64,000 nucleotides of DNA, from contig NZ_JAQOMR010000001.1 of NCBI RefSeq assembly GCF_028401385.1, positions 870,501 to 934,500 on the forward strand, given 5' to 3'. The notes below the pieces were generated by a model. That model was not told where the DNA came from and did no database searches. It was given only the letters and a program-made list of their open reading frames with translations. The stretch comes from Marinicella algicola (GTDB lineage: Bacteria > Pseudomonadota > Gammaproteobacteria > Xanthomonadales > Marinicellaceae). Positions 27,886 to 57,660 of the stretch are shown piece by piece. Both the position numbers and the translations under genes were made by a program. Position 1 is the first letter of the stretch. The number at the start of each line of letters is the position of its first letter.

Positions 27886-30800
27886 TTAAAGCCCTGTCGG
27901 GCGCCTGAGATCGAGCGTTAGCGGGAACTCCGGTGACGGCGCTTCGTTGAAGACCGCGTAGCCGCCAGCAGTGTGCCCCGCAGCCTCGAATCGTGCAAGT
28001 CGCCTTGCTTCCGCCTCGTTGCCATTGATCGGAAAGGTCTCATAATTGCGCCCGCCGGGATGCGCAACATGATAAATGCAGCCCCCGACTGATCTTGCTG
28101 ACCATGTGTCGTAAATGTCGAAGGTCAGCGGTGAGTTGACCGGCAGGACGGGGTGAAGGCCGGAGGCCGGCTGCCAGGCCTTGAAGCGCACGCCGGCAAC
28201 CGAGACGCCGTTGGCTCCGGTTGGCTTTAGTGGCACCTTGCGGCCATTGCAGGTCACGATATAGCGCTCCGGGGCCTGGGTCTCGAGGCGGACCTGAAGG
28301 CGTTCGACGGACGAATCCACATAGCGCACCGTGCCGCCGGGCGCACCCTGTTCACCCATCACATTCCAGGGCTCAAGCGCCTGACGGAGCTCCAGCTTGT
28401 TGCCCTCATATTCAACCTCGCCGAAGAACGGGAAGCGGAACTGCAATTGTGCCTCGAACCATTCCGGACGGAATTCCAGGCCGTTTTCCTTCAGGTCCTG
28501 AAGAACATCCATGAAATCCTGCCAGATGAAGTGCGGCAGCATGAAACGGTCGGCAAGCGCCGTGCCCCAGCGCGCCAGCTTGCCCTCGATCGGGTTCTTC
28601 CAGAACCGGGCGAGAAGCGCGCGTACCAGAAGCTGCTGGGCCAGGTTCATGCGGGCATTCGGCGGCATTTCGAACCCGCGGAACTCGACGAGGCCGAGAC
28701 GTCCTGTGGCGCTGTCGGGCGAAAACAGCTTGTCGATGCAGATTTCGGCGCGGTGGGTATTGCCGGTGACATCGATCAGCAGATTGCGGAACAGACGGTC
28801 GACCATCCAGGCAGCGGCGGCTCGGTGTCGGATTGCGGGTGCGGAATATGTCCCATGGCGATTTCGAGCTCGTAGAGCGCGTCGTGGCGAGCCTCGTCGA
28901 TGCGCGGTGCCTGGCTGGTCGGGCCGATGAACAGGCTCGAGAACAGATAGGAGAGCGAGGGATGGCGCTGCCAGTGCAGGACCACGCTCTTCAGCAGATC
29001 GGGCCGGCGCAGGAACGGACTGTCAGCGGGGTTGGCGCCGCCGACCACCACATGGTTGCCGCCGCCGGTGCCGGTGTGCCTGCCGTCGATCATGAACTTG
29101 TCGGCGCCCAGCCGTGTTGCACGGGCTTCCTCGTAGATCGCCGTGGTGGTCTCCACGCATTCATTCCAGTTCGCGGCGGGATGGATGTTGACCTCGATGA
29201 CGCCGGGGTCGGGTGCGACACGGATGACGTCGATACGCTCATCCTGTGGCGGCGAATAACCCTCGATGTGGACGGGGAGGTTGAGCTTTTCAGCCGCGCG
29301 TTCGGCCGAGGCGACCAGATCGAGATATTCCTCCAGCGTTTCGGTCGGCGGCATGAAAATGCACAGCCGCCCCTCTCGCGGTTCAACCGACATGGTGGTC
29401 CGCACGTGACTGGCTTCCAGCGGGCCGTAGGCTGCGGGCCTCGGCGCCGGCGGTTTGTACTGAAACGAGGCGAAAGGCAAGGTCGGCAGAACTCGTCCTT
29501 CATCCTGCCTGAAGTCGGGTAGAGGTCCGCGTTTGACCGAAGGATCAAGCGGGTTGATGAACGGGTACTCGGCCGGCGGGATCCAGGCAAGCGAGATCGA
29601 GCGGCAGGCGGAAGCCGATAGGGCTGTCGCCGGGAATAAGGTAGATGCGCCCGCGCCGTGTCGTCCATTTTTCGGAAACCCATTTGACCCCCGAAGCGCG
29701 GCTGCCCCCGAAGCGCGGCCCTGCCATGCCTGCACGGGCAAGATATATCCGACGGGCTTTGTCAGTCCGCGTTCGAAAACCTTGGTGATGCGCGCCCGGT
29801 CTTCGGGGCTTTTGAGCTTTGAATTGGACGGGTCGACATTATCCGGCAGTTTGCCTTCGCGGATCAGCCATTCCGCGGGATCCTCGAACACCGGTTCGAC
29901 GACGTCCGGCTCGATGTCCAGTTCGTTGGCGATGGCCTGCAACAATCGTCCGGCGTCGTTCTCGTCAACCTTGATTTCCTGCGCTTCCTCGGCGATCAGG
30001 TCCTGATTGTTCCAGATCGGCACGCCGTCCTTGCGCCAGTAAAGCGAGAAGGTCCAGCGTGGCAGGCTCTCGCCCGGATACCATTTGCCCTGGCCGTAAT
30101 GCAGAAAGCCGCCGGGGCGAAACGCTCCCTCAGCCGGCGGATCAACTCGTCGGCCAGCCCGCGTTTGGTCGGGCCGACAGCGCCGGTATTCCATTCATCG
30201 GCCTCGAAATCGTCGATGGAAACGAAGGTCGGCTCGCCACCCATGGTCAGGCGCATGTCTGTTTCTTCGATCAGCTTGTCGACCTTGGCGCCAAGCGTAT
30301 TGAGCGCATCCCAGCTCTCGTCTGAATACGGTTTGGTGATGCGCGGATGTTCTGCCACCCGGTCGATCTTCATATCGAAGTCGAAGCTGATCTCGGCCTT
30401 GCCGGCATAGCCGCCGGTAATTGGCGCAGCGTTGCTGAAATGCGGCGTGGCGGCCAGCGGGATATGGCTTTCCCCAGTCAGAAGGCCGGATGTGGCATCA
30501 AGGCCGATCCAGCCCGCACCGGGCAGGAAAACCTCCGCCCAGGCATGAAGGTCGGTGAAATCGTGATCGGTTCCAGACGGGCCGTCGAGGGCCTTGATAT
30601 CCGGCTCAAGCTGGATCAGGTAGCCGGAGACGAACCTTGCTGCGAGCCCCATATTGCGCAGGATTTGCACCAGAAGCCAGGCGCTGTCACGGCACGAACC
30701 CGAGGCGCGCTCAAGTGTTTCCTCCGGCGTCTGGACGCCGGGCTCCATGCGGATAATGTAATTGACGTCATGCTGCAGGCTGGCATTGATACCGACGATC

Positions 30801-31234
30801 ATGTCGACCGTGCCCTGACCGGGCGAAAGATCGAGCTTCTCCATCAGCGTCTTCAGCCGCGGCCCCATCGGCTCGGGCCTCAGGTAGATCGACAGATCCT
30901 CGTGGATCGCTTCGTCATATTTGAACGGGTATTTGGTCGCCTGTTCTTCGACGAAGAAGTCGAACGGATTGTAGACCGTCATGTCGGCGACCAGGTCGAC
31001 CTCGATCTTGAACTCGGTGACCGGCTCCGGGAACACGAAACGAGCCTGATAATTGCCGTAAGGGTCCTGCTGGAGATTGACGAAGTGGTTCTCCGGCGTG
31101 ACCTTCAGCGAATGCGAGATGACCTTTGTCTTCGAGTGGGCTGCCGGTTTCAGCCTGATGATCTGTGGTCCGAGACTGACGGGATTGTCGTATTTATAAT
31201 GTGTGAGGTGGTAAATCGCTGCTTTGATTGACAT
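27886..31234 (-). CDS. Transglutaminase-DUF2126 protein (four frame breaks)
   Basis: A large protein of about 1116 residues after repair. Residues 1-300 form a transglutaminase module: [20 protein letters not shown], Cys in [20 protein letters not shown], His in [18 protein letters not shown], Asp in [14 protein letters not shown]. The rest is DUF2126, with [39 protein letters not shown] and the C-terminal [19 protein letters not shown]. Breaks: 30114-30117 (one base missing), 29705-29709 (missing), about 29600 (extra) and 28810-28811 (missing). The DUF2126 region resembles glutamine-synthetase-fold amidoligases in published analyses. First gene of the cluster; the next starts about 120 bp on. 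Confidence 0.88.
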
Positions 31235-31431
31235 CTGCGTCCTTGCCGACGGTGAAGGGCATCTTCGGCACAAACCGAAAACGCTCTTTCAAGTTCCCCT
31301 GTTCTTTTGCCGGGAAGTGTGGGCAAAGCTTGACGATAAAGCAAGCAGGATTGCCCGTACGGCGCGAAATTCCGAACGGGCTTTCTCAAGCGGTGGCGCG
31401 TAGCGATTTTGATAGCCGGCCAGCCGGGAAG

Positions 31432-50717: not shown

Positions 50718-51363
50718 GACTGATACTTCTGGGACCGCCCGGCGCCGGCAAGGGACGCAGGCGCAGCGTATTGTAGCCAATCATGGCATTCCGCAGCTCT
50801 CGACCGGAGACATGCTCCGGGCAGCGGTCGCTGCTGAAACCGAGGTTGGCAAGAAGGCCAAGGCTGTCATGGATGCCGGAGGACTGGTTTCCGACGACAT
50901 CGTGATTGCAATCGTTTCCGAACGGATCGATCAGGACGACTGTAAGGATGGCTTCATCCTCGATGGTTTCCCGCGCACGCTGGTGCAGGCAGATGCTACC
51001 GAGAAAATGCTTTCGACCAAGGGTATCGAACTCGATGCCGTGATCGAGATCAAGGTTGATGACGAGACGCTGGCAGAGCGAATCGCTGGCCGCTACAGCT
51101 GCGCCAAGTGTGGCACGGGCTATCACGACGACTTCCACAAGCCGAAGGCGGATGGCGTTTGCGACAAGTGCGGATCGACCGAATTCAAGCGTCGTCCGGA
51201 TGACAACCGTGAGACTGTCGAAAAGCGCCTGAAGGCCTATTACAAGGAAACTGCGCCGCTGATTGGCTACTACTATGCCAAGGGTACGCTTTCCTCGGTT
51301 GACGGTATGTCTGATATGGACACCGTGACGGCCAGTATCGAGAAGGTTCTGGCAAAGATCTGA
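50714..51363 (+). CDS. adk: Adenylate kinase (one frame break)
   Basis: Converts AMP and ATP to two ADP. MRLILLGPPGAGKG starts the P-loop; one G is missing at 50752-50754, and restoring it gives TQAQRIVANHGIPQLSTGDM and a total of 216 residues. The LID domain holds a zinc-type Cys4 site (SCAKCG and VCDKCG). GFILDGFPRTLVQAD is the core NMP segment. It is coupled to secY by a 4-bp overlap. Confidence 0.95.
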
Positions 51364-52578: not shown

Positions 52579-52675
52579 TCAGCTGTCAATTTGCTCCGGC
52601 GTTTCCGTGTGAAGCTCCGGTTCTACGAAGCTCGGCCGTCACGATTGGATAGTGCGGCGAACGAAAGGTAGAAAC

Positions 52676-53685
52676 ATGATACAGAAAAACTGGCAGGAAC
52701 TGATCAAGCCGTCGAAGGTGGAGTTCACTTCCAGCGGGGCCAAGAAGGTCACGCTCGTTGCTGAACCGCTGGAACGCGGCTTCGGTCTGACGCTCGGCAA
52801 TGCGCTGCGGCGCGTTCTTCTGTCGTCGCTGCGTGGCGCTGCTGTCACCGCCGTTCAGATCGACGGCGTGCTGCACGAGTTCTCGTCGATCCCAGGTGTT
52901 CGTGAGGATGTCACCGACATCGTTTTGAACATCAAGGAAATCGCCATCCGCATGGAAGGCGATGAAGCCAAGCGCATGGTTGTCCGCAAGCAGGGCCCCG
53001 GCGTGGTGACTGCAGGCGATATCCAGACCGTTGGCGATATCGAGATTCTAACCCGGGCCTCGTTATCTGCACGCTGGATGAAGCTGCGGAAATCCGCATG
53101 GAGTTCACGGTCAACAACGGCAAGGGCTACGTGCCTGCCGAGCGTAACCGCTCGGAAGACGCGCCGATCGGCCTCATTCCGGTCGACAGCCTGTACTCGC
53201 CGATTCGCAAGGTGTCCTACAAGGTCGAAAACACCCGTGAGGGTCAGGTTCTCGACTATGACAAGCTCTTGATGACGATCGAGTCGGATGGTTCGGTCTC
53301 TGGTGAAGACGCTGTTGCCTTTGCGGCCCGTATTCTTCAGGACCAGCTTGGCGTTTTCGTCAACTTCGAGGAACCGCAGAAGGATACGGAAGAAGACGAT
53401 GTCACCGAACTCGCCTTCAACCCGGCCCTTCTCAAGAAGGTCGACGAGCTGGAACTTTCCGTCCGTTCGGCCAACTGCCTGAAGAACGACAACATCGTCT
53501 ATATCGGCGATCTTATCCAGAAGACCGAAGCCGAAATGCTGCGTACGCCGAATTTCGGTCGGAAGTCGCTGAACGAGATCAAGGAAGTGCTGGCCTCGAT
53601 GGGCCTGCATCTTGGCATGGAAGTGCCGGCCTGGCCGCCGGAAAATATCGAGGACCTCGCCAAGCGGTACGAGGATCAGTACTAA
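52676..53685 (+). CDS. rpoA: RNA polymerase subunit alpha (one frame break)
   Basis: Assembly platform of RNA polymerase; 336 residues after repair, the usual alphaproteobacterial length. The N-terminal dimerisation domain reads [20 protein letters not shown]; the C-terminal DNA- and activator-binding domain reads [20 protein letters not shown] and [20 protein letters not shown]. One base is missing near 53047-53050, between DIEIL and [20 protein letters not shown]. Essential and single-copy, so the break must be an error. AAAGG precedes ATG 52676. Confidence 0.96.
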
Positions 53686-54255: not shown

Positions 54256-54866
54256 ATGCAGGATCGTTATGCCGGGGACGTCGGTGACTATATAAAGTTT
54301 GGTCTGCTGCGAGCTATTTCAGCGGATAAGAAGTTGGGAATTGCTTGGTACCGCTATCCAGATGAAACCCGGGGCGGCGACGGCAGGCATATAGCCTATC
54401 TGGATAGGCCCGAACTATGGGAGAAGTTCGATCCAGAGCTGTTCCAGCATTTGCGTCGCGTGGTTCGCGGTGCGCGCTCAATCGATTCGCTCGTCCCTGT
54501 TGTCCAAGATAGTATCGTGTTCGATCGCGCTTTGGATACATCGACTATGCCAGCATCAGATAGATCGAGTTGGCGAAAGCAGTGGTTTCTCCAGTTGCTT
54601 TCTACTATTGATGGATGTGACGTGGTGTTTGCTGATCCGGACAACGGTATTGTCTACGATAGCGGCCACCGAAGAAGATCCCTTGATTTCGGCAAGCGTA
54701 TCCCACTTTCAGAGGTAGTGGATTTGGCGCAAGGTCGGTGTGCTGTTATCTATCATCACAATAGCCGCTTCAAGGGCGGGCATGATAGGGAGGTCGACTT
54801 CTGGCTTTCCCAATTTAGGGTGCCGGCGGTTGCTGTGCGCGCCAGGAAGTATAGTTGCCGGACGTT
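54256..54866 (+). pseudogene. Unknown gene, 5' part, split by nested IS elements
   Basis: ATG 54256 with AGGAAAAG upstream. It starts MQDRYAGDVGDYIKFGLLRA and contains AWYRYPDETRGGDGRHIAYL, CDVVFADPDNGIVYD and CAVIYHHNSRFKGGH, which look like a Rossmann-type alpha/beta protein; a methyltransferase- or nuclease-like role is possible but I do not assign one. The outer IS enters after CGGACGTT. Removing the IS and one target copy joins this part (611 nt) to 57561-57660 (100 nt) in frame, 236 residues, ending RTFFVLNPDSV...LHKGQS. Its base use is more AT-rich than the ribosomal genes beside it. Confidence 0.75.
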
Positions 54867-54934
54867 GGATCGTGTCCCGCAGCGTGGTGTAGCTTCGGCG
54901 TTCGCCATGCCTTCCGGACAGGGCTGGGAACGGA

Positions 54935-55271
54935 TCAGCTTGCCGCAGCGGGCAGGCTGATGAGCGGATCATCGCTCATTGTGGCGATGGTCTCAAGGGT
55001 CATGTAGCGGGACCGCTGGACGGCCCACTCGTCGTTTTGTTCGAGGAGTAGCGCGCCGACCAGTCTGACGATGGCGTCATCGTTGGGGAAAATGCCGACG
55101 ACCTCGGTGCGGCGCTTGATCTCGCCGTTCAGGCGTTCGATCGGGTTTGTCGAGTGAAGCTTGGCCCAATGCTGCCTGGGAAAGGTCATATAGGCGAGCA
55201 CGTCCTGTTCGGCGCTGTCCATGAGCGTGGCGAGTTTCGGCACGTTCGGCCTGATCTGGTCGGCAACATTG
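54935..55271 (-). pseudogene. Outer IS256-family transposase, C-terminal part
   Basis: Reads VADQIRPNVPKLATLMDSAE then MTFPRQHWAKLHSTNPIERL, NGEIKRRTEVVGIFPND and LETIATMSDDPLISL. The STNPIERLNGEIKRR segment is the conserved C-terminal motif of IS256 (mutator-type) transposases with the last acidic catalytic residue. It continues the N-terminal part at 56586-57456. Confidence 0.88.
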
Positions 55272-56585
55272 GAGACTGTCTAGAATTTTGTGCCCTGGCG
55301 TTGTTTCAGGACATAGGAAACGTTCTTCGAACATGATTGCGAGCTGGCTTTTGACGGCGTGCCATTCTCGCACTGAACGCTTCCACTCGGTTGAGGTAGC
55401 ATTGAGGGCCAGATAGATCAACTTGGCCGCAGCCTCATCGCTCGGGAAGTGTCCGCGCGTTCTGACGGCGCGCCGGATTTTCGAGTTCAGCGCCTCAATG
55501 GAATTCGTGGTGTAGATCAGCCTGCGCACCTCGGGCGGATAGTCGAGAAACGGGATGACCTCGTTCCAGGCCCGCCGCCAGCTTGGCGCGATCGCCGGAT
55601 AGCGCCTGGCAAGGTCACTGTCCTCGAAAGTTGCCAGCGCTTCTTCCGCCGCCTCGATATTCACGGCGGTGTAGACCGTCTTGAGCGCCTTGGCGACGGC
55701 CTTGCGGTCCTTGTAGCTGGCGAAATTCATGGAATGGCGCAGGAGATGGACAATGCAGGTCTGAACCTGCGTCCTCGGGAAGGCTGCCTCGATGGCCTGC
55801 GGAAAGCCCTTGAGGCCGTCGACCACGGCGATCAGAATGTCCTGAACACCCCGGTTGCGCAGATCGGAAAGCACGCTGGCCCAGAATTTGGCGCCTTCAT
55901 TGGCCTGGAACCACAGGCCCAGCACGTCGCGCGTGCCGTCCGGAAGGATCGCCAGCGCCACGAACACCGCCTTGTTGGAGACCGCGCCGTCGCTGCGGAT
56001 ATTGACCCGGATCGCGTCCATGAAGACGATCGGATAGCAGGGCTCCAGAGGCCGGTTCTGCCATGCCGTGACCTCATCCATCACGCTATCGGTGATGGCG
56101 GAAATCAGGCCGGGGACGCCTCCACGCCGTAGATTTCCTCGATATGCCCCTGGATCTCCCGGGTCGTCATGCCCCGGGCATACATCGAGATGATCTTGCG
56201 GTCGAAATCGGGAAAGCGGCGCTGGTATTTGGCGATCAGCACCGGATCGAAGGTGCCGTTGCGGTCGCGTGGGATGTCGAGGACCACCTTGCCGCTGTCG
56301 GTGGTCACCGTCTTGCTGCTGCTGCCATTGCGGCGGTTTGCCGGCTCGTTATGGCCTTCGGGCACAGCCTCAGCCCGCTCTTCGTCGAGATGGACGTCAA
56401 TCTCGGTGCTCAGGGCACGTTCGGCCAGTGCTTTCGTCAGTTCGGACAGAATACCATCCTTGCCGAAAAGGTCACCGGGCGAGCGCCCTTGCATCAGGCG
56501 GTCCAGGAGTTCTTTGTCGATGCTCATACGTGGGTCTCCTCAAAGAGCAGTTACCACGCCAGAGCACAAAAATCAGGACAGTCCC
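55272..56585 (-). mobile_element. Inner IS256-family element, 1314 bp
   Basis: Ends GAGACTGTCTAGAATTTTGT (left) and, reversed, GGGACTGTCCTGATTTTTGT (right) form imperfect inverted repeats extending to about 32 bp. The 8-bp target duplication CAACATTG flanks it at 55264-55271 and 56586-56593. It lies inside the outer element's transposase gene, in the same orientation, so it arrived second. Confidence 0.9.
55280..56527 (-). CDS. Inner IS256-family transposase (frame break)
   Basis: About 415 residues. MSIDKELLDRLMQGRSPGDL starts it after GAGGAGACCC. The DDE region reads CYPIVFMDAIRVNIRSDGAV, DILIAVVDGLKGFPQAIEAA, and RRLIYTTNSIEALNSKIRRA. One base is missing at 56112-56115 (GVEASP to GLISAITDSVMDEV). 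The C-terminus is uncertain: the current frame runs past the element's end, while a one-base change after FEER gives VSYVLKQRQGTKF and a stop at 55280, inside the inverted repeat. Likely functional if the breaks are read errors. Confidence 0.82.
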
Positions 56586-57456
56586 CAACATTGCGCCACT
56601 GGGTGCTCGCCGCCTCCGGCGTGTCCTGTGCAAAGGCGGTGGCGATGAAGGCGGAGACGACCCGCCGCCCGTTCTTCCCGGCATGGGCGAGCGCATTGCG
56701 CATGAAATGGACCCGGCACCTCTGCCAGGTGGCGCAAAGCACCTTCGACACGGCTGCCTTGATGCCCTCGTGGGCATCGGAGACGACCAGCTTGACGCCG
56801 CGCAGACCCCGCCTTGTCAGCTTGCGCAGGAATTCCGTCCAGATCGGCTCCGCCTCGGATGTGCCAACCTCCATGCCGAGCACTTCGCGCCGGCCGTCGG
56901 TGTTGACGCCGACGGCAATGATGACGGCGACGGAGACGATCCGCCCGCCGCGCCGGACCTTCATGTAGGTGGCATCAATCCAGAGGTAGGGCCATTCTCC
57001 TTCAATAGGCCTTTCGAGAAAGGCCTTCACCTTGTCGTCGATCTCCTCGCAAAGTCGGGAGACCTGGCTCTTGGAGATGCCAGACATGCCCATGGCCTTC
57101 ACCAGATCATCGACGGATCGGGTCGAGACGCCCTGGATATAGGCCTCCTGGATCACCGCCGTCAGTGCCTTCTCGGCCATGCGCCGTGGTTCGAGGAAGC
57201 TCGGGAAATAGCTGCCGGTGCGAAGCTTCGGAATGCGAAGCTCCACCGTCCCTGCTCGCGTCTCCCAGTCCCGGTCGCGGTAGCCGTTGCGCTGGGCATG
57301 CCGGAACGCGTTCTTCTCGCCATAGCCCGCGCCGGTCTTCGCGCTCACTTCCAGCGCCATCAGCTTCTCGGCGGCAAAGCCGATCATCTCGCGGAGCAAA
57401 TCGGCATCGGCGCTCTTCTCAATCAGTGAGCGCAGGTTCATCATATCGTCGGTCAT
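56586..57456 (-). pseudogene. Outer IS256-family transposase, N-terminal part
   Basis: Starts [20 protein letters not shown] at 57456 and continues through the first catalytic Asp region ([20 protein letters not shown]) and [19 protein letters not shown]. It is cut at STQWRNV by the inner IS. Removing the insert and one CAACATTG gives exactly 1200 nt, 399 residues, running on into VADQIRPNVPK, the normal IS256 transposase length. Confidence 0.9.
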
Positions 57457-57552
57457 CGGTGGTCTTTCCATCAGGTTGGTCTTTGACAACCCGACCCTAG
57501 CGGAAAACACTGGTGACCACCGATCCAACTACACCACATGCAGGGACACGAT

Positions 57553-57660
57553 CGGACGTTCTTTGTCCTGAACCCTGACTCCGTGATAACAGACGGTCTG
57601 TCAGCGTTTTGTCAGAAATGGTCAGCATTTCGGGTTACGCTACACAAAGGGCAAAGCTAA
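57553..57660 (+). pseudogene. Unknown gene, 3' part, after nested IS elements
   Basis: Starting with the second CGGACGTT copy, the frame reads RTFFVLNPDSVITDGLSAFC then QKWSAFRVTLHKGQS and TAA at 57658-57660. It is the natural end of the gene that begins at 54256. The stop overlaps the convergent DUF817 stop codon. Confidence 0.75.

Follow-up and report, generated by a model that had tools for sequence, protein, structure and literature searches.

Organization of the locus

The window, i.e. the whole stretch of 64,000 nucleotides analysed here, contains downstream of rplQ a gene that is divided in two by an IS256-family element, whose own transposase gene is divided by a second element of the same family. 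Both elements have further copies in the source genome; two full-length copies of the outer one (L012 and L013) served as references and are called sister copies below. The features are listed with their coordinates in the window and their strand.

54256-54866, plus strand: 5' part of the host gene, 201 codons followed by target sequence; homologous to residues 1-200/201 of its relatives
54860-54867, no strand: target repeat to the left of the outer element, GGACGTTG; register as in the sister copies; 7/8 against the right repeat
54868-57553, minus strand: outer IS256-family element including the inner one, 2686 bp; ends as in both sister copies; inverted repeats 20/25
54935-55271, minus strand: outer transposase gene, C-terminal part; PF00872 positions 305-377; continues the frame of the right piece
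55264-55271, no strand: target repeat to the left of the inner element, CAACATTG; 8/8; single copy in both sister copies
55272-56585, minus strand: IS256-family element nested in the outer one, 1314 bp long; also present full-length at other places in the genome; inverted repeats 25/31
55286-56084, minus strand: inner transposase, C-terminal frame (part scanned); PF00872 positions 146-379
56105-56527, minus strand: inner transposase, N-terminal frame, 140 aa; PF00872 positions 4-134
56586-56593, no strand: target repeat to the right of the inner element, CAACATTG; 8/8 against the left repeat
56586-57471, minus strand: outer transposase gene, N-terminal part; PF00872 positions 6-292
57553-57660, plus strand: 3' part of the disrupted gene, comprising 35 codons plus the stop; its translation (RTFFVLNPD...) agrees with the C-terminal ends of relatives
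57554-57561, no strand: target repeat to the right of the outer element, GGACGTTC; register as in the sister copies; 7/8

Base 57553 is common to the host gene, as the first base of its 3' part, and to the outer element, as its last.

The inner element and its empty sites

The initial annotation placed the inner element at 55272-56585, within the outer transposase gene and between 8-bp flanks CAACATTG, and there it stands: the flanks are identical in all eight positions, and both sister copies run uninterrupted across the insertion point, with CAACATTG present once at the same spot, i.e. they are empty sites. When 200,000 placements were drawn at random within this window, 4 of them gave identical 8-mers at this spacing. 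The terminal inverted repeats are identical at 25 of 31 positions, and the element begins with G and ends with C. The inner element is inserted into the outer one with a duplication of 8 bp, for which the sister copies are direct evidence.

Ten places in the source genome match the inner element, six of them full-length and four fragments. The full-length set comprises the copy in the window, L002-L004 (at least 99.9% identical), L005 (97%) and L006 (88%); exact 8-bp repeats flank five of these six, including the copy in the window, and are absent from L006, while the repeat of L002 can be read as 9 bp as well as 8 bp. The flank of L002 contains PNPOx_N, L004 adjoins an open frame with MFS_1, no family match was found in the flank of L003, and L005 sits in an IS110-type transposase gene (PF02371 on one flank, PF01548 on the other). 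The idea that the inner element favours other insertion sequences as targets was considered and set aside, as two of the five datable copies (that of the window in an IS256 transposase gene, L005 in an IS110-type one) are too few to claim it. L005 itself (C1:1725667-1726969 of the source genome) is a mosaic 97% copy: its 39 differences from the copy in the window all fall in 55283-55869, with none in the 716 bases of 55870-56585.

The outer element and its corrected ends

The two sister copies, each 1363 bp in length, do not differ in sequence; they start with GATCGTG and end with CACGATC, and both are flanked by exact 8-bp repeats. The initial annotation had delimited the outer element by flanks CGGACGTT, which occur on both sides only if both ends are shifted by one base, whereupon the inverted repeats fall to 7/25. 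Because both sister copies agree on the other register and the inverted repeats there reach 20/25, we corrected the ends to 54868-57553; so delimited, the element begins with G and ends with C. Judged from its sequence, the outer target duplication is one base short of perfect (7/8), the single mismatch presumably representing a later point change or an error in the consensus. Of the two target duplications first described as preserved, that of the inner element is confirmed (8/8) and that of the outer one, with the ends taken from the sister copies, agrees at 7 of 8 bases. The outer element has matches at eight places in the source genome: three cover the whole of the part searched, and the other five are short.

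Removal of the inner element had been said to restore a transposase of 399 residues. The lengths of this and of the host protein were calculated from separate pieces, which were left unjoined, and by this arithmetic the figure is reproduced: 290 residues of the right piece (from the ATG giving MTDD) plus 111 of the left, minus two shared via the repeat.

Family assignment and relatives on plasmids

The recognition of two nested IS256-family elements is borne out by profile searches, in which all four transposase pieces exceed the cut-off of PF00872. The cut-off of NF033543 (150) is exceeded by the right piece of the outer element (267 bits) and by the C-terminal piece of the inner one (293), while the outer left piece (64) and the inner N-terminal piece (93), both short, remain below it; both elements thus encode an IS256-type Mutator transposase. 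The family, as described in PMC3942029 (section 11), is characterised by inverted repeats that measure 18-39 bp at the element ends and have a conserved terminal C, by direct repeats of 8 or 9 bp, and by transposition via a circular intermediate. The inverted repeats and terminal C of both elements conform to this description, as do the direct repeats (inner element 8/8, sister copies 8/8, outer element of the window 7/8). The inner and outer elements are different members of the IS256 family.

The inner element resembles IS256-family members (p-MULT 1) on plasmids of Sulfitobacter (mostly), Leisingera, Komagataeibacter and Acetobacter, with full-length DNA identities of 79.4-84.4% among the best 15 of 1000 matching records; one record of the 1000 is 95-99% identical and lies outside these 15, so its coverage is not given. 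The inner transposase is split in the copies of the source genome, whereas three of six relatives fetched have it in one long frame. The outer element resembles IS256 members on plasmids of Rhizobium (mostly), Ciceribacter, Pseudorhizobium and others, with identities of 85.8-88.5% over 97-100% of 960 bases among the best 20 of 673 records, one further record, outside these 20, being 90-95% identical. Unlike these plasmid relatives, the outer element studied here is interrupted by the inner one.

The disrupted host gene

A search for relatives of the host gene returned 80 loci, in 22 of which the C-terminus was read, at protein identities of at most 58%. In 20 of the 22 the protein is contiguous, with R-[TS]-F-F, where the window is interrupted; as for the other two, L039 is cut short by the end of its contig, and L040 has a frame that continues to 494 aa. 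The 20 relatives crossing the junction are 232-256 aa long, and the two parts of the host gene add up to 236 residues (201 + 35), the length that had been predicted for the restored protein. The placement of the outer element in a disrupted host gene is supported. The initial annotation had named a relative with non-contiguous flanks as the finding that would count against it; these 20 of 22 loci, albeit distant relatives, have them contiguous.

Among the genomes listed as nearest kin, the source genome alone (1 of 61) carries the host gene, with none found in the 60 others. RplQ is 48-59% identical to that of genomes labelled as the same family, order or class among the matches listed, apart from its own match and two short partial ones (68% and 76%), and the rpoA-rplQ DNA gives patchy matches of 64-79% identity among those listed (177 of 369 genomes, its own included). 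Because the labelled kin are this distant in RplQ and in rpoA-rplQ, a strain-level empty site of the host gene is out of reach. The kinship label of the comparison genomes may be wrong; the ribosomal proteins of the source genome look like those of Rhizobiales.

Proposed history of the nest

The pieces and ends of both elements are established, as are the duplication around the inner one, the lack of any interruption in the sister copies and the contiguity of host-gene relatives across the junction. The locus very probably records two successive insertions by IS256-family elements, i.e. elements with a Mutator-type DDE transposase. An outer element of about 1363 bp would have inserted in the gene downstream of rplQ, duplicating about 8 bp of its target, and a different element of 1314 bp would then have inserted in the outer transposase gene, duplicating the 8 bp CAACATTG. 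These insertions have presumably left both the outer transposase and the host protein inactive.

The initial annotation held that the order of events can be read directly, which is correct insofar as the outer copy is older than the inner element within it. The simplest reading, in which the outer element occupied the host gene before the arrival of the inner one, goes beyond what is demonstrated, because a nested pair moving as a unit would leave the same picture. In that case the inner element would first have inserted into an outer copy at another site, and the nested pair, 2.7 kb in all, would then have been moved into the host gene as one unit by a transposase supplied in trans. The intact outer ends and the presence of further copies of both elements in the genome speak for such a transfer; however, among 12 loci compared outer and inner sequence were seen side by side in the window only, with no second nested pair, and the transposase frames of both sister copies are split as assembled, which makes the source of transposase in trans uncertain, even if that split may be an assembly error. 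We consider this course of events unlikely. Faulty assembly across repeated elements is a very improbable origin of the nest: both elements are repeated in the genome and the split frames of conserved genes in the window indicate that the consensus is not error-free, but a false join would not give flanks of 8/8 and 7/8 that agree with the sister copies and with the relatives of the host gene.

The nest is real and of an ordinary type, both elements being of known kinds. With the empty sites of the inner element present in the same genome, it makes a clean textbook example. By itself it makes no open question testable; its disrupted gene points to a conserved, unnamed protein family.

Split reading frames

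Five of the six full-length copies of the inner element (that of the window and L002-L005) have the transposase divided between two frames; the sixth, L006, has stop codons. Among the six inner-element relatives fetched, L115, L118 and L119 are unsplit, while L116, L117 and L120 are broken elsewhere; for the outer element, the relative L122 is unsplit and annotated as one gene. Elsewhere in the window (28776-31273, 50812-51363, 52652-53685), rpoA and a DUF2126 gene each occupy two frames, and the open frame of adk is without its start, lacking the first 29 positions of the Pfam profile. Both rpoA and adk are essential in most bacteria, so that indel errors in the assembly are the likely common cause of the broken frames.

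Production of the inner transposase from its two frames by programmed -1 frameshifting, which would leave the interpretation of the nest unaffected, seems to us improbable. Such a mechanism is suggested by the recurrence of the same split in five of six full-length copies, by two profile matches that abut (PF00872 positions 4-135 and 136-379), and by the second frame, where 28 of 36 codons that differ from L005 are synonymous against about 24% expected; a precedent is the ISMich2 group, for which PMC3942029 (section 11) reports that programmed -1 frameshifting was inferred. The site itself argues against it: it is unsplit in relatives, all six fetched (L115-L120) and L006 differing there, and three of these six have one long open frame, the others being broken elsewhere. 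Moreover, it lies within the tract that is identical between L005 and the copy in the window, so the split that they share is not independent; single-copy genes in the window are split too, and no canonical slippery heptamer was recognised.

The protein family of the host gene

The host gene belongs to a widespread and conserved, unnamed family with an RlmJ-like predicted fold. RlmJ (Pfam PF04378) is the N6-methyltransferase of A2030 in 23S rRNA, and the host family is only 10-12% identical to it. The family, represented by the two pieces in the window (54256-54858 and 57553-57660) and by L019-L038, has DPDN where RlmJ has DPPY. In 55 sequences of the host family D127, D129 and N130 are invariant and P128 nearly so, whereas in the RlmJ set the consensus is DPPY, with D and the first P invariant. 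Alignment of the two families by hhalign is centred around DPDN/DPP, with a probability of 0.7% and an E-value of 0.078, values that fall short of significance.

Other comparisons gave no assignment. The 5' piece of the host gene had no match in Pfam, NCBIfam, PADLOC or PHROG; a Roseovarius homologue and the window piece matched no Pfam family, PF04378 included, up to E 10; and a profile search of PDB sequences found nothing significant (best E 0.15). Conserved neighbours were not seen, as 31 of 33 loci carry the family's own cluster and every other cluster has at most four members, and no sign of a role in defence was found, PADLOC giving no match. The relatives include three plasmid records and no phage record.

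We would tentatively regard the broken gene as a member of a family that may combine a methyltransferase fold of the RlmJ type with DPDN in place of DPPY, and that could be either a new class of nucleic-acid-modifying enzymes or the same fold put to other chemistry; it may merit a separate study. The family is further characterized by an N-terminus of the MQDRYAGD type, whose invariance is in part a product of selection, since the loci were found by patterns that include MQDRYAGD (44 of 55 alignment rows), and by an invariant YxH. A separate RlmJ is present in the source genome.
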